Origin: Thermoplasmata archaeon
GTDB lineage: Archaea; Thermoplasmatota; Thermoplasmata; Thermoplasmatales; ARK-15
Length of the DNA: 35,025 nucleotides
Assembly: GCA_023261745.1 (NCBI GenBank)
Contig: JAGDXR010000009.1
Location: 1-35,025, forward strand
Direction: 5' to 3'
In this document: positions 1,329 to 35,025 of the stretch, in pieces
Numbering within the stretch: position 1 is the first letter of the stretch
How the letters are laid out: every line of letters starts with the position of its first letter
Position numbers and translations under genes: made by a program
Notes under the pieces: generated by a model
Told to the model about the DNA's origin: nothing
Databases searched by the model: none
What the model saw: only the letters and a program-made list of their open reading frames with translations

Positions 1329-3287
1329 TCAGATAAGTCTTATTTCATCGTATGCCGCCCGTAAAATTTTGAGATAGTATGAAATTGAATAATCTACATC
1401 TGAACCCTCGGATGCTGCCTTTAGAGGCTTTTCAGAATATATTATGTATCTGATCTTTTCTGATGGCCTGTAGATGACATTTTTTCCATAAAATTCTTCC
1501 AGTACCTGTTTGGAAGGGTTTGTTGATGTATATTCCCATGGATATCTATTGACACGCTTTTCAATTAACAGTTTTTTTATTTCAACATCCCTTGTCTCAA
1601 TCTTTTCCTTGTATTCAATGAAAATTTTTTTAATGTCATATTTCTCTGTATCTGCAGGGACCTTAACATTTTTCAATATCTCAAGTGCTTCATTCTGAAA
1701 TTCCTTTACAATTTCCGGAGTATCATGCCTTCTGAGCATTATACCCCTTATCTTGTAATTTCCATCCATACCCCTGGCTACATATCGCCCCGGGATTCCT
1801 AAGGAAATGTCCCCCTTCATAGGCAGAATTTTTATCCAGTAATATTTGTCGGATAATTCTATCGGCAGGTCGGTCACCCTCTCTATTTCCTCTATAATGC
1901 TGGAATCAACAAGTCCAGAAACCCAGAGGGAATCCACTATCATTGAAATTACATTGAAACCATATTTTTCCACTATCTCTTTGGCCCTTAATAAAAATTC
2001 TCGTGCATATGCATTGATACTTTCATGAACCTCTATGCTACCGAATTTAGCATTTCTGTATCCCGTATATCCAAAAGATGTTACAAGCATCCATTTAAAT
2101 GCTTTATCCACGCCTTCCATGCTTTTCATGTTCTTTTTCAGTCTTTTGATACCTATTCTCAGATTCAGAAAATCTTCAAGGGCATACGAAAGAAAACCTT
2201 TTTTATCAATACATACATTATATCCAAGTTCGGGGACGGTTTCATAACTTTTGCATTTTCCATTCACCGTTTCAAGAGATAAATTCTTTTTCACTATTAT
2301 TGATGGATACATCGATGTAAAATCCAGTTCAGAAACATTCCAGTATAACCCTGGCCTGACCTGGTAGACCAGGCCACCCCTGTCTGCCTTTATTAAAGTT
2401 TCGATATTCTTTTCCCTCTCAGGATGCGATTTATGATATGGTACAGATAATCCATTTCTCAGTGCTTTTGATACTTCCAGGCTTGATATCAGTGTTCCAG
2501 GCGTAGATCTAGAAGCATATGAAGGATCGAGGGAGGATATTGCAGATGAGGCCAGAACACCGAATAAACCTCCTTCAGAATAAATGAAACTTGTCTGAGG
2601 ATCTATCAATGATCTTCCCCTGGGTATATATGTCATTTCCTTATGGTAGGTATAGCCATAGGAAAAATATTCCTTTTCCCTTATCACATTCCATCCTGGC
2701 ATTCTTCCCAGATAGAAATCATAACCTTTTTTATTGGATTCATATATCCAGTCCGGGATGATGGAATCCGCTCCTTCCATTATTATTATGTCGGGATCTT
2801 CATCTATAACCGTATCCATTAACTTCAAATAATCATTAAAATAATATTCCCTGCCACTGTATTCATAATAATTGGTATGTCTTTTGAAATTCATTATTTC
2901 AATTCCACTGAAATCCGGTATCCCATTTTTGTAATCATAATAGTTAAAATTCTTTTCAGAGATATATCTAAGCGGTAACCTTATATCAACATTGTAAAAA
3001 TCCACAAGATAATAATTGAAATATCTTTCCACCATGCTTGATAATTTGAAAAATGATTGTGAATACGTTTTAATGTAATATCCATCATATTCACCAAAAA
3101 TTGTCCTGAATTTTTTTCTCCCCTTTTCCAGTATACCAGGATAATCGAATTCCAGAACCTTTTCAGAAATACCCTTTTCATCATACAACAATATTTCAGG
3201 GAAGTATTCTTCGGAAATGCTCCTTACCCTCCCGTTTTCCCTTAAAAAAAGATGAGCTTTTTTCTGAACTTCTACTGAGACGAGCAT
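1329..3287 (-). CDS. Divergent family-B DNA polymerase, PolB2-like (probably 'inactivated' clade)
   Basis: [18 protein letters not shown] (motif A), [19 protein letters not shown] (degenerate motif B), [15 protein letters not shown] (motif C with DTD->IVD), [26 protein letters not shown] (post-motif-C region); exonuclease motifs degenerate. Confidence 0.85.
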
Positions 3288-3517
3288 TTCTTTTCAAGTT
3301 CCATTAATTCTCTTTCCATTTCAATAAGCACAGATAATATTACAGCTTCAAGTGGATCTTCGAGGGAATATGAGGATTCCGCAGTATGCCTCTTTGCCTT
3401 CTCGATTATCTTTTCCATATACTGTTTGTCTTCCGCATGCATGGCCTTCATGAAAGATTGCCATCTCTCTATGATGGCATTTATTTCCTGTCTCATTGTT
3501 GAAATGTTCCTTCCCAT
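3272..3517 (-). CDS. Small charged helical protein of the PolB2 cassette
   Basis: 81-aa ORF overlapping the PolB2 start by 16 nt, same strand, predicted largely helical and charged; no recognised domain. Confidence 0.7.
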   Translation of the reverse strand: MGRNISTMRQEINAIIERWQSFMKAMHAEDKQYMEKIIEKAKRHTAESSYSLEDPLEAVILSVLIEMERELMELEKKCSSQ

Positions 3518-3529
3518 GATATCACCACC

Positions 3530-4081
3530 TCATTCACCATCAAAATCAAAAATGGATAGCTGCCCAGGTATATAATAGAAGTGATATATTCTGTCACCAT
3601 ATTTTATTGTATACCCATTCTGGTGCTTTTCAGTCAGTATATAAGGAAACCTTGCCAAAAAAGGAAATGAATAAGAGGAAAAGAATAACGTTATTGAATT
3701 GTTTTCGCTTGTATATTCCAGCATTCCATTCACAATTCCGGAAATGAGGGAAAACTTTTCATCATTTCTCAAATCTGAATATGAAATGGGATCAAAATAA
3801 TAGATCAATAAGTCATACTTATTTTTCAATTCCTTTAAAATTTCGATTATCTGGTAAAATGTGAACCCCCTTCTCACCGTGATTTTTATATTATTTTTGA
3901 ATTTTTTGATCATATTGTAAGATGATCTAAGATCTGTGGGTGTATAATTCCCCATTATTAAATAATCGTTCATTCCTGCGAGCTGTGATTCAACCAGTAA
4001 CCTCTCGGATGGAAATGCGTCAGGGTTTTTTATTATATACATTTTCCCATAATCAAAAATATCGTAAAGACGAATTAACAT
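3530..4081 (-). CDS. RecA-fold-like protein without Walker A, with C-terminal PIP-box-like peptide (PolB2 cassette)
   Basis: 183 aa; YDLLIYYFDPISYSD is Walker-B-like, no GxxxxGK[TS]; C-terminus GQLSIFDFDGE; 12 nt upstream of the small gene. Confidence 0.65.
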   Translation of the reverse strand: MLIRLYDIFDYGKMYIIKNPDAFPSERLLVESQLAGMNDYLIMGNYTPTDLRSSYNMIKKFKNNIKITVRRGFTFYQIIEILKELKNKYDLLIYYFDPISYSDLRNDEKFSLISGIVNGMLEYTSENNSITLFFSSYSFPFLARFPYILTEKHQNGYTIKYGDRIYHFYYIPGQLSIFDFDGE

Positions 4082-7372: not shown

Positions 7373-11762
<4,390 letters not shown>

Positions 11763-24023: not shown

Positions 24024-26519
24024 TCATAGAAATTTTTTCAATTCATTGATTTTTCTTTTTAACTCATCGTATGTTGTATTTTCGGTATCAATGTTCTTTA
24101 ATTCCTCTTTTAGGATGATATCATTCAGGCTTACCTGTTTTACATTTCTCTTGACATCCAGTACATTTTCTTTCTCTATTTTTTCCAATATTTCTCTGGC
24201 TCTCTGAACAATACTCTGGGGTAAACCTGCCATTGAAGCTACCTCTATTCCATAGCTCTCACTCATTCCACCTTTTTTGATTTTTCTCGTGAAAATTATT
24301 CCATTTGAAGTCTTCTCAACTGGCATATGGTAGTTTTTTACTCCATCAAGATACCTTTCAAGTTCAATTAGATGATGGTAATGTGTTGCAAAGATTGTTC
24401 TTGATTTTATCTTGTTGTGTATGTATTCTGCAGAAGCCCATGCAATGGCCAGACCATCAAATGTTCCGGTTCCCCTTCCTATTTCATCAAGAATAATGAT
24501 ACTCTTCTCTGTGGAATAAACCAGAATCTTGGATAGTTCAACCATTTCCATCATGAAAGTGCTTATCCCCATGAGAATGTCATCTGAAGCCCCTATACGT
24601 GTGAAGATTCTGTCAACTATCCCTATTCTGGAATATGATGCAGGAACAAATGAACCTATCTGTGCCATTATTACTATATTTGCTATCATCCTCATGTATG
24701 TGCTTTTCCCAGACATGTTTGGACCTGTGAGTATTATAAATCTATTTTTATCTGTATCAATAAAAACGTCATTTGGAACAAAATTTTCAACGAATTCTTC
24801 AACCACTGGATGTCTCCCATCCCTTATTTCAATAATTCTGGAATCATCCATTACAGGCATAACATAATTTTTTCTTGCGGCAATGTCGGCAAAGGTTAGA
24901 AGAACATCCAGATCAGCAAAAACTTTTGATGTTTCGAGGATCTCATCGGAATTGGATATCTTTTCCAAAAGAGCTTTGAAAACCTCCTCCTCTCTGTATG
25001 CCATATTTTCCTTTGCATCCATCACCTTGAACTGAAGATCTTCCAGTTCCCTTGTGGTATATCGTTCAACATTTTTTAGAGTCTGTTTTCTTATGAAATG
25101 CTGGGGAACTTTCTGCAAATTTGATTTTGTTATCTCTATATAATATCCAATAACATCATTATAGCCTATTCTCAAATTTCTTATACCTGTTTTCCTTATC
25201 TCATCGTTTTCTATTATCCTGATATTCCTTTCAACATCCCTCAAAATCTTTCTATAATTGTCAAGGATTTCATCATAACCATCCTTTATAATATATTCCT
25301 TTGTTGCATCTTCTTCAATGGATTTCTCAATCTCCTTTTTAACTTCTTCAAAATCTTTTATGGATTTTAGATAATTTGAAATTAGAACAGAATGAAAATT
25401 TGAAAGGACTTCCTTTAGATTAGGTATCTGATACAAAAATGATTTTAACATTAAAAGATCATTTTTTGTAGCTTTACCGGTTTTTATTCTTCCCCATATC
25501 CTTTCAACATCCGGAATCTTTTCTAAAATTGAAAATATTTCCATCCTCAATATGGGTAAATCGTAAAATTCCTTTACCGCCTCAAGCCTCTCAGTTATCT
25601 TGACCCTATCTATTAAAGGAAAAGAAAGTAGATTGAAGAGTCTCCTAGAACCCATTTTTGTTCTGCATTTATCAAGAAGCCCAAAAAGTGAATTCTTTTT
25701 TTCACCTCTGTAATCGGAAAATATTTCCAGATTCCGTACTGTGGACTCATCAAGAAACATGTAATCATTTATCTGGGAGATCCTGATTTCCCTGATGTTT
25801 TTTAAAATCTCCTTATCACCCTTTTCAAGGTATTTTAAGAAACCCCCAAGCGAAATAACTATTTCAGAATTATTCAATACCTCACTTAAAATATTATTTT
25901 TCACATTTTTTGTTATTATTTCAATTGCTTCCTGATAACCAATATCAATTTTTGAAAGGAATATGGATTTTTCCTTGGATATCTTCTGGACATCATTATC
26001 ATTAACATTTATCAGTAATATTTCGCGTGGATTCAATTTATACATTTCAGATAATATCTCATCCTTATTTTTAGACTGTATGATCCTTATTTCTCCTGTA
26101 GAAATATCGGAAAAAACGGAAATGTAATTCTTATCATAATATAATGAAAATAGATAATTTGTTATTCCCACGAGAAGGTCTTCTTCAATTACAGTTCCTG
26201 GTGTGAAAATCCTTGTCACTTCCCTTTTAACAATGCCTTTGGCAAATTTTGGATTTTCAATCTGTTCACACAGAGCAACCTTATATCCCCTGTTTAAGAG
26301 TTTTGAGAGGTATGGGTAAAGAGCATGAAATGGTATTCCGGCCATCGGGATTTCATTTTTCTCTCTGTTTCTCGATGTCAAAACAAGGTTTAGTTCCTTG
26401 GAAACTGTTATAGCGTCATCCCCAAATGTTTCATAAAAATCTCCAACTCTATACAATAAGATTGCATCACGATAATTTTTCTTTATTTCATTATACTGTT
26501 TCATCAGAGGAGTTTCCAT
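24024..26519 (-). CDS. mutS: DNA mismatch repair protein MutS (MutS1 type)
   Basis: GDFYETFGDDA (Phe-x-Glu), ILTGPNMSGKSTYMRMIANIVIMAQIGSFVPA, ILDEIGRGTGTFDGLAIAWASAEYI, FATHYHHL. Confidence 0.97.
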   Translation of the reverse strand: METPLMKQYNEIKKNYRDAILLYRVGDFYETFGDDAITVSKELNLVLTSRNREKNEIPMAGIPFHALYPYLSKLLNRGYKVALCEQIENPKFAKGIVKREVTRIFTPGTVIEEDLLVGITNYLFSLYYDKNYISVFSDISTGEIRIIQSKNKDEILSEMYKLNPREILLINVNDNDVQKISKEKSIFLSKIDIGYQEAIEIITKNVKNNILSEVLNNSEIVISLGGFLKYLEKGDKEILKNIREIRISQINDYMFLDESTVRNLEIFSDYRGEKKNSLFGLLDKCRTKMGSRRLFNLLSFPLIDRVKITERLEAVKEFYDLPILRMEIFSILEKIPDVERIWGRIKTGKATKNDLLMLKSFLYQIPNLKEVLSNFHSVLISNYLKSIKDFEEVKKEIEKSIEEDATKEYIIKDGYDEILDNYRKILRDVERNIRIIENDEIRKTGIRNLRIGYNDVIGYYIEITKSNLQKVPQHFIRKQTLKNVERYTTRELEDLQFKVMDAKENMAYREEEVFKALLEKISNSDEILETSKVFADLDVLLTFADIAARKNYVMPVMDDSRIIEIRDGRHPVVEEFVENFVPNDVFIDTDKNRFIILTGPNMSGKSTYMRMIANIVIMAQIGSFVPASYSRIGIVDRIFTRIGASDDILMGISTFMMEMVELSKILVYSTEKSIIILDEIGRGTGTFDGLAIAWASAEYIHNKIKSRTIFATHYHHLIELERYLDGVKNYHMPVEKTSNGIIFTRKIKKGGMSESYGIEVASMAGLPQSIVQRAREILEKIEKENVLDVKRNVKQVSLNDIILKEELKNIDTENTTYDELKRKINELKKFL

Positions 26520-32182: not shown

Positions 32183-32848
32183 ATGATAATCCTGGACTAT
32201 AGAGAAAGAAGTATCATTTCACTGATGTTTGATATAGATGATAGAATAGATATCTATAACCTTCCGGTAGGTGATATTCTTATACCTGTAAATGGTTCCG
32301 CTATTTTAATTGAAAGAAAAACACCATTGGATTTATCATCCTCAATAAAAACAAGGAGAATTTTCGATCAGGCTTCAAGAATTTTTAAAGAAGATAGTGT
32401 TTTGAATTATAAAATAAAGAGAAAAATTTTGCTGATACATGGAGAAATCATGGACTATGAAAATCTACTCGGTTTGAGTGTGGCATCGATATACGGGGCA
32501 ATACTGGAAATAAGATACAGATATAGAATCGATGTATTTGTATCCCCAAATGATTTCCATTTTAAGGAATTCATAAGGATTCTCAGGAAAAGAGAAATTG
32601 AGGGAAAAGATGACGGGAATTTTGAAGAAGTATGGGAAAGGAGAATTAATAAGTCGGATACATTGGAATCATGGAAAATTTACGTCCTAACATCTCTGCC
32701 ATATGTTGGCGATAAAACGGCAAAATTTCTTCTGGAGAGGTTCAGAACAATTGAAAATATAGCAAAAGCTCCTCTATCTGATCTAAAAAATATTCCTGGA
32801 ATTGGAGAAAAAAAGGCTAAAAAAATATATGATATATTTCATCAGTGA
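32183..32848 (+). CDS. XPF/ERCC4-type endonuclease, short form (nuclease + HhH, no helicase)
   Basis: ILDYRER...GDILIPVNGSAILIERKTPLDLSSSI (ERK nuclease motif), tandem helix-hairpin-helix LPYVGDKTAKFLLERF / IPGIGEKKAKKI. Confidence 0.92.
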   Translation: MIILDYRERSIISLMFDIDDRIDIYNLPVGDILIPVNGSAILIERKTPLDLSSSIKTRRIFDQASRIFKEDSVLNYKIKRKILLIHGEIMDYENLLGLSVASIYGAILEIRYRYRIDVFVSPNDFHFKEFIRILRKREIEGKDDGNFEEVWERRINKSDTLESWKIYVLTSLPYVGDKTAKFLLERFRTIENIAKAPLSDLKNIPGIGEKKAKKIYDIFHQ

Positions 32849-33588
32849 ACGATTTTGGATATTGTTATACCTGTCTCTGTAAGATTATATTTGAATACTC
32901 CAACCTTATCAGGATAATTTCTGAACTTTTTTATTGTGAATATCCTGTCAAAACCCATCGGTGCCCTAACATTTTCCATGGTCAATATGATATCCACAAT
33001 TTCTTCAATGGCGTTTTGAACCATGGATGGATAAAGGGATGAGACCTGGGTAAGGAGTGCAACTCCCTGGGTATACTGTGTATGCATTTTTATTGTCCTC
33101 ACCGTTGAAAGAGCTTCAGAATGATCCGTCTGGCTGAAAAGAAAATCTAAAGAATCCAGAACCATTCTGTAAGGTGATTTGACCGTGGAAAGTGCGTATT
33201 TAACAAGTGTTATTATTTCGAATTCCTTTTCAAGCTTGAATTTATGAGGCTTGAGTATTTCCTCAGCAGGAATTCCTTCCTCCCTATATTTACTTATTAT
33301 TATCTCCTTTTCCAGAACCCTCTTATAATATGCCTCACCTATATTTATTATCGATATATTATCAGTCTTCCATTTAAAATTCTTCATGGTATTCAAGATA
33401 TCTTCCGTTCTTTCATTTGTAGTAAGATAAACTGAATGTTCTCCCGGAATGTAACTTGATGCAAATTGCTTTGCAAATACCTCAATTCCAGACCCTGGCG
33501 TACCTGATAATAATATTGTATACCCCATAGGCACACCCATCATCAATGACGAATCAAGATTCTCAATTCCCGTTGGGACGGTTTTCAT
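32842..33588 (-). CDS. KaiC/RecA-superfamily protein with degenerate Walker A
   Basis: TGIENLDSSLMMGVPMGYTILLSGTPGSGIEVFAKQFASSY (GK[TS]->GIE), VYLTTNERTEDIL, YRMVLDSLDFL. Confidence 0.88.
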   Translation of the reverse strand: MKTVPTGIENLDSSLMMGVPMGYTILLSGTPGSGIEVFAKQFASSYIPGEHSVYLTTNERTEDILNTMKNFKWKTDNISIINIGEAYYKRVLEKEIIISKYREEGIPAEEILKPHKFKLEKEFEIITLVKYALSTVKSPYRMVLDSLDFLFSQTDHSEALSTVRTIKMHTQYTQGVALLTQVSSLYPSMVQNAIEEIVDIILTMENVRAPMGFDRIFTIKKFRNYPDKVGVFKYNLTETGITISKIVH

Positions 33589-33589
33589 G

Positions 33590-34150
33590 TCAATCTACCT
33601 CTATAATTTCATCGCTCACTATACTCATTATATTTTTTATTTCCTGCGTATTCTGGTCCCTTATTGATAAAATTATAAAGAATGCATTTTTAGACCTTAT
33701 TAATGTAGCGAATAAATGGAAAAATTCAGAGAGTATTTTTGTGTCATTGTGAACAGCCAGGGTATTGATTGAATCTATTATTATTGCAACGTCCCCCTTG
33801 ATATATTTTTCCATTATGTATTCCGTTTTGATCATTATCGTTTCAAGCATTGTTGGGCTCTCTACATAAAGAATATTGGGATTATTATATTCAGAAGCCA
33901 TCATAATGCTTGATATTGTATCAACAAAGTATATGTTATTCAGATCCAGGCCATAGACTTCAAGCAAACTTATAATGTTTTTACTGGGAATTGTTGAGGA
34001 TATGTAAATTACTGAAAGGTTCTTTTCCTTTGTAAATGCGTTAAGAAGATCTTTTATTCCTTCAAAAAATGATGTGATATTGAAAATGACACTAAAACTC
34101 TCAGGATCAGTTATGGATTTTAATTTTATCAGAAATTCATCATAATTCAT
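33590..34150 (-). CDS. KaiC/RecA-superfamily-like protein lacking Walker A
   Basis: 186 aa; Walker-B-like DVAIIIDSINTL in the order and context of neighbouring KaiC paralogues; no P-loop. Confidence 0.7.
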   Translation of the reverse strand: MNYDEFLIKLKSITDPESFSVIFNITSFFEGIKDLLNAFTKEKNLSVIYISSTIPSKNIISLLEVYGLDLNNIYFVDTISSIMMASEYNNPNILYVESPTMLETIMIKTEYIMEKYIKGDVAIIIDSINTLAVHNDTKILSEFFHLFATLIRSKNAFFIILSIRDQNTQEIKNIMSIVSDEIIEVD

Positions 34151-34885
34151 CTATTCACCCCCATTCTTTAGCAGGGGAACAAGCATTATTCCTATGGACG
34201 TTAATTCCAGAACATATGTTGCTCTTGAATGTGCGGTCCCTCTCATCTTTATTACTCTGAGTGTCCTGAGTAGATCCCCCCTTCTTTCATAATTTCCCAT
34301 CAGGATTATTCCATCCGCAATTGCTTCTTCAACTCCGTATTGTGAATAACCCTTTGCAAATGGTAATAGTTCTGATATCATTAAGGTGGTAGCACCGAAC
34401 TCCTGAAGAGCTTTTCCCAATCTCAGTATAAATTCCATTATTTTTTCTTCTGTCTCAAGCCTGTAACATATACTTGTAATTGAATCTATCACAACCCTCT
34501 TTATATTGAATTCCTTGACAATTTTTATAATATTTTCAATAAGAAGATTTATATCCTCAATATTAAACTGAAGTTTATTCAGGCCAAGTTTCTCATAAAT
34601 TTCAGGTATATCTATAAAAATTATATCCTTCTGAATGTTTTCTCTCGAGAAAAAATCGTATGTTATCAGATTTTCAACCAGTTTCCCTGAGTCTTCTGTA
34701 ACAGATATATAAAGGCCCTTTTCACCCATGATTGCTCCATGCACTAAAAATTCTATACTAAGGGTTGTTTTGCCTGTCCCGGCAGATCCAGAAATTAAAA
34801 CTGTATTACCAACAGGTATACCACCATTAAGAATTGTGTCCAGACCACGTATACCAGTTAGACACTTTTTTCTGGCTTCTGCCAT
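34151..34885 (-). CDS. KaiC-domain ATPase
   Basis: TGIRGLDTILNGGIPVGNTVLISGSAGTGKTTLSIEFLVHGA intact Walker A; VVIDSITSI Walker B; start taken as MAEARKK, not the upstream TTG at 34945. Confidence 0.93.
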   Translation of the reverse strand: MAEARKKCLTGIRGLDTILNGGIPVGNTVLISGSAGTGKTTLSIEFLVHGAIMGEKGLYISVTEDSGKLVENLITYDFFSRENIQKDIIFIDIPEIYEKLGLNKLQFNIEDINLLIENIIKIVKEFNIKRVVIDSITSICYRLETEEKIMEFILRLGKALQEFGATTLMISELLPFAKGYSQYGVEEAIADGIILMGNYERRGDLLRTLRVIKMRGTAHSRATYVLELTSIGIMLVPLLKNGGE

Positions 34886-34932
34886 AATTAAGTAAGTTAT
34901 ATTTGGTTTATTAAACTTTATTATTTCAAAAT

Positions 34933-35025
34933 GTGACCCTCTCAACTAAAGCATCAGTGCTTCCTAACTTGTCAGCTACTCCTCGCTAAAGCTTCGGAGC
35001 CTGTTGCTGGCCTCCTGCTCCACCC
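34933..35025 (-). mobile_element. Possible IS200/IS605-type element right end with 3' tail of a TnpB-like CDS
   Basis: GC-rich contrast; partial frame ...VEQEASNRLRSFSEE* (stop 34976-34978) followed by hairpin AAGCA-TCAG-TGCTT (34949-34962) and GAGAGGGTCAC. Confidence 0.4.

Follow-up and report, generated by a model that had tools for sequence, protein, structure and literature searches.

The locus raises the question of whether the last residues of a small RecA-like protein, encoded beside a degenerate DNA polymerase, dock that polymerase on the sliding clamp of the host. The window analysed here is a stretch of 35 025 nucleotides from a Thermoplasmata archaeon (contig JAGDXR010000009.1), and the peptide in question, the PIP-like QLSIFDFDGE, forms residues 174–183 of the protein (3533–3562, minus strand). 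It was studied by translation, orthologue conservation, disorder prediction and profile alignment. The results make it very probable that this tail is a genuine PIP motif tethering a PolB2 translesion mutasome to the host PCNA.

The RecA-like gene is the first of three on the minus strand, in the order iRadA (3530–4081), PPB2 (3272–3517) and PolB2 (1329–3287), with a 12-bp gap between iRadA and PPB2 and a 16-bp overlap between PPB2 and PolB2. PPB2 is an arCOG07300-type small helical protein of 81 aa, whose N-terminus, MGRNISTMRQ, carries the conserved MGR[TN] start; an MGR[NTS] start is kept in nearly all PolB2 operons examined, and the PPB2 profile matched 82 ORFs at 83 loci. PolB2 (652 aa) matched NF004416 with an E-value of 1.7e-145, slightly below the curated cut-off. 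Its motif A is intact (DFTSMYPSI) and the D(K/R) motif is retained as ADRGG, whereas motif C reads IVDS instead of DTDS, so that the first Asp of DxD is lost. A simple scan of the first 200 residues found no exonuclease D.E[TV] motif, and the C-terminus of the 652-aa polymerase carries no PIP. The degenerate polymerase partner assumed in the sequence-only reading is thus a family-B enzyme from the same operon. Judging from these sequence features, the three genes are the PolB2/PPB2/iRadA operon described in PMC11791011, whose products were named the PolB2 mutasome (PolB2–PPB2–iRadA) by Timinskas, Timinskas and Venclovas in 2025. The gene order, the MGR start of PPB2, the degenerate DxD and the iRadA without Walker A are the same in both, and there too the clamp motif lies on the C-terminus of iRadA and not on PolB2. 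QLSIFDF is weaker than the canonical QxxLxxFF; otherwise nothing essential differs.

The minus-strand ORF 3530–4081 encodes 183 aa with the C-terminus ...HFYYIPGQLSIFDFDGE, and the end of the protein sequence reads ...FYYIPGQLSIFDFDGE. A motif scan of the whole protein found no Walker A ([AG]xxxxGK[ST]), while the RRGFTFYQ signature is present. The AlphaFold2 model, based on an alignment of four orthologues, reached a pLDDT of 76.8 and a pTM of 0.76, and the first matches of a Foldseek search against the PDB were RAD51, RecA and RadA (E ~1e-6, TM-score up to 0.66). The protein corresponds to the core only and is devoid of the N-terminal helical domain. The predicted RecA/Rad51-type fold and the missing Walker A agree with the earlier description of a nucleotide-binding-dead RecA-fold subunit, and iRadA is taken here as the catalytically dead RadA homologue of the PolB2 mutasome. 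Elsewhere in the window, three neighbouring KaiC/RecA-like ORFs (32842–34945, minus strand) offer another example of RecA-fold partners that are inactive: the P-loop is intact in one (34151–34945, GSAGTGKTT), degenerate in another (32842–33588, GTPGSGIE) and not visible by eye in the third (33590–34150).

The ten codons of QLSIFDFDGE occupy exactly positions 3562–3533 on the minus strand and are followed by the stop codon TGA (3532–3530), as expected from the proposed protein end. The fit to QxxhxxF at the extreme C-terminus was likewise borne out, since Q174-L-S-I177-F-D-F180 (residues 174–180 of 183) is the sole match to Q..[ILMV]..[FYW] in the whole protein. Residues 174–183 are also the only stretch of iRadA with a pLDDT below 50 in the AlphaFold2 model and are predicted to be disordered; QLSIFDF thus presents Q-x-x-h-x-x-aromatic in an exposed flexible tail. 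The canonical double aromatic (FF, YF or WF) is missing, as F180 is followed by D181, and a single aromatic is also seen in other iRadAs, e.g., NQTTLDEFGRW. With Ile at +3, a single aromatic and Asp at +7, the tail obtained a FEN1-based score of 5.5, inside the top 5% of the background and outside the top 1%; owing to this weak variant, its affinity could be modest. The frequency of chance matches was estimated in two ways. When the whole iRadA was shuffled with its composition preserved, 0.97% of the shuffles matched within the final 15 residues and 2.6% within the final 30. The second estimate used flanking ORFs of related loci with a minimum length of 180 aa: 13 of 439 matched within the final 30 residues, but four of these were, by their tails, iRadAs left unassigned by the assignment script, which leaves about 2%. 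The motif alone is therefore more than chance, and what makes it solid is its conservation in orthologues.

The sequence-only reading had made its proposal depend on that conservation. In the family of the window (f1), represented by five genomes, the operon was found in four, three of them from one genus, and Q, the hydrophobic residue at +3 and the aromatic residue at +6 are retained in all four. The three relatives, the metagenome-assembled genomes Thermoplasmata archaeon KMA_Bin13, Aciduliprofundum sp. ARK-15 and Euryarchaeota archaeon MV2.Eury.2014, have iRadAs only 36, 34 and 32% identical to that of the window, and the tails of these three proteins read LQVPLDYFMEV, RQISLDYFMEV and HQTSLDYYMEV. 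A Q-type PIP is absent from the C-termini of the f1 PolB2s, those of the window and its relatives.

The host genome (82.6% complete) contains one PCNA match, which lies on the minus strand of contig C36 around 10410–10766 and ends in LLAPRIEG, and at this completeness no match to the beta-clamp (PF00712). The bacterial beta-clamp reading was rejected on this basis, and the resemblance to the bacterial motif QL[SD]LF, to which the peptide had been likened, is irrelevant in such a host. The comparison with the PIP peptide of archaeal RFC-L also failed: in the five f1 genomes, host included, no such peptide was found in the last 70 residues of RFC-L, which excludes it as an in-host comparator and makes FEN1 the better one within the lineage. 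The FEN1 of the same genome ends in QKNIDQWF, and Q-x-x-[LI]-x-x-[WF] stands at or beside the terminus in the 30 FEN1s examined from the order. Like them, the iRadA tail has Q-x-x-[LI]-x-x-aromatic only a few residues from its end, but FEN1 ends in a double aromatic (WF or FF) where iRadA has F followed by DGE. The window also encodes, judged by eye, an XPF/ERCC4-like nuclease with a helix-hairpin-helix end (32183–32848, plus strand), whose C-terminus AKKIYDIFHQ is without a Q-type PIP box, and an 831-aa MutS-like protein (24024–26519, minus strand) in this archaeal genome.

PolB2 operons were gathered from the order and from genomes sampled across the phylum, and their C-termini were scored; both iRadA and PolB2 were assigned in 115 operons. 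With Q-x-x-[ILMV]-x-x-[FYW] close to the C-terminus as the criterion, the iRadA motif occurs in 40 of the 45 operons outside the families f3 and f6. It is present in all operons of f1 (4/4), f35 (14/14), f9 (7/7), f10 (3/3), f11 (2/2) and f14 (2/2), in two of three from f7 and in the single operon each of f18, f19, f21, f45, f47 and f50, and absent in f22 (two operons), f24 (one) and f2 (one). NQTTLDEF and GQLRLEAFG are typical of these tails. The other families were out of reach of HMM searches that had only the f1 iRadA as seed, and gene order and profile–profile comparison were needed for this reason. Alignment of the f1 and f9/f10-type iRadA profiles with hhalign gave a probability of 90.8% and an E-value of 1.2e-6, and ...YIPGQLSIFDFDG fell on ...YRPVPRNQTTLDEYGG although no motif information had been supplied; the tail of the window is thus aligned with the NQTTLDEY/F tails of other families. 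Beside or downstream of four f35 operons (L188, L196, L199 and L207) lie ORFs starting with MCYRYS that look SRAP-like by eye; SQSSLF or SQKSLF forms the end of three of them and may be a further tail of the clamp type.

The reverse state was found in f3 and f6, sister families from the same order as f1. The iRadA motif occurs in none of 14 operons in f3 and in one of 56 in f6 (QGRLWKF, likely by chance), while a Q-type motif stands at the C-terminus of PolB2 in all 14 operons of f3 (e.g., QKSIEEYDTD) and in nine of 56 in f6 (e.g., QADLFSFSV and QSDLSWWF). Other f6 polymerases show Q-less variants such as RNLLDFFH and RVSLEDWF, and PIP-like C-terminal peptides, some containing the Q and some lacking it, are found on many f6 PolB2s. 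The iRadA candidates of f6 (L061–L119) are shrunk to about 116–170 aa and have highly variable C-termini. Their identity as iRadA, and that of the f3 proteins, rests on the position beside PPB2 and on the f3–f6 profile match (98.9%); their match to the f1 profile has a probability below 4%, and homology to the f1 protein is not established.

When PolB2 matches were counted up to four residues from the end, none of the 115 operons carried both motifs. On the PolB2 tree, six changes are needed for the iRadA motif and seven for the PolB2 motif; with only five independent pairs, statistical significance is unreachable and the mutual exclusivity is a pattern that falls short of a rule with statistical support. 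The matches QDRLRDF and QVRLGEF in f9 PolB2s were not taken as PIPs, because their position is seven residues from the end, and other families have the same segment but lack the Q. In the published survey the clamp motif was commoner on iRadA than on PolB2 and seldom present on the two together, and the motif was called "shuttling" (PMC11791011). We put forward, as a possibility that has somewhat less in its favour than against it, that iRadA is the default clamp-docking subunit in the phylum, that the shorter iRadA of f3 and f6 lost the peptide while PolB2 gained a Q-type PIP, each complex therefore having one tether, and that one PIP per mutasome reflects selection rather than shared ancestry. 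The PolB2 of the window family grouped in both trees with f11 and f24, which are outside its order, and not with f3 and f6. Since a clade of f1, f3 and f6 is not rejected by the AU test (p = 0.079), horizontal transfer of the f1 operon is not claimed.

The same data bear on other explanations of the tail. It could be a short linear motif for another partner (PolB2 or PPB2 inside the complex, or another repair factor) that resembles a PIP by chance. Short linear motifs are degenerate, and the tails of the window and of f1 match a PIP less well than the NQTTLDEF class does; nevertheless, the phylum consensus Q-x-x-L-[DE]-x-[FY] matches the PIPs of the order's FEN1s (Q-x-x-L-D-x-[WF]), and PolB2 bears the same motif class instead in f3 and in some f6 operons, consistent with a common role at the clamp. 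We consider this explanation unlikely. Even less probable, and by a clear measure, is that the f1 motif is a decaying ancestral PIP that binds PCNA poorly and leaves the complex distributive in this lineage. In the window the second aromatic is gone and +3 is no longer Leu, and the f3 and f6 iRadAs have lost the motif, all of which would suit such decay, but all four f1 operons retain the key positions even though about two thirds of the positions in the proteins differ. A functionless coincidence might draw on the background rate, as the pattern turns up near the C-terminus in 1–2.6% of shuffles and in about 2% of the flanking genes. It is contradicted by the conservation of the motif at the equivalent site in the relatives and phylum-wide, and has practically no probability left.

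For the preferred reading, a PIP motif on iRadA, we propose the following arrangement. The dead RadA homologue would carry the motif on its flexible tail and grip PolB2 by a RadA-type interface, PPB2 lying next to the pair, and the tail would reach the hydrophobic pocket on the PCNA ring of the host. The damage-tolerant polymerase may thereby be tethered to the clamp at stalled forks. The data show the sequence, the predicted fold, the operon, the conserved motif, the PCNA gene and a PolB2 devoid of a PIP in this family, and from there we infer formation of the complex, binding to PCNA and a role in lesion bypass. The PolB2 mutasome is described as a 1:3:1 complex of its three proteins, and in the published model iRadA and PolB2 meet at a RadA-type interface with PPB2 alongside (PMC11791011).

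The idea that iRadA binds PCNA is right in kind but already in print, as the 2025 report, using a PolB1 PIP-motif profile, described multiple archaeal iRadAs whose C-termini carry PCNA-binding motifs (PMC11791011). A literature search returned no experimental test of iRadA with PCNA; the abasic-site bypass kinetics of Sulfolobus islandicus Dpo2 were run without PCNA (PMC8721586), and an earlier genetic study deferred a Dpo2–PCNA interaction to future work. The Dpo2 operon resembles the present one in having a degenerate family-B polymerase in a conserved multi-gene locus. Dpo2 is damage-inducible and required for targeted mutagenesis in that organism (PMC7390963, PMC11791011), which belongs to a different phylum from the lineage of the window, known here from sequence. 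Escherichia coli Pol V (UmuD'2C–RecA) provides a working analogy, with a RecA-family partner and a clamp tether for an error-prone polymerase; unlike the archaeal complex, to which it is not homologous as a system, it has a Y-family polymerase and the beta-clamp motif on UmuC (PMC11791011).

In some archaea PolB2 is the principal polymerase for mutagenic lesion bypass, and its recruitment to the fork is the question addressed here. A clamp tether placed on an inactive recombinase, and not on the polymerase, would be a directly testable answer, and the distribution among lineages, mostly on iRadA but on the polymerase in f3 and part of f6, indicates which proteins may be compared.
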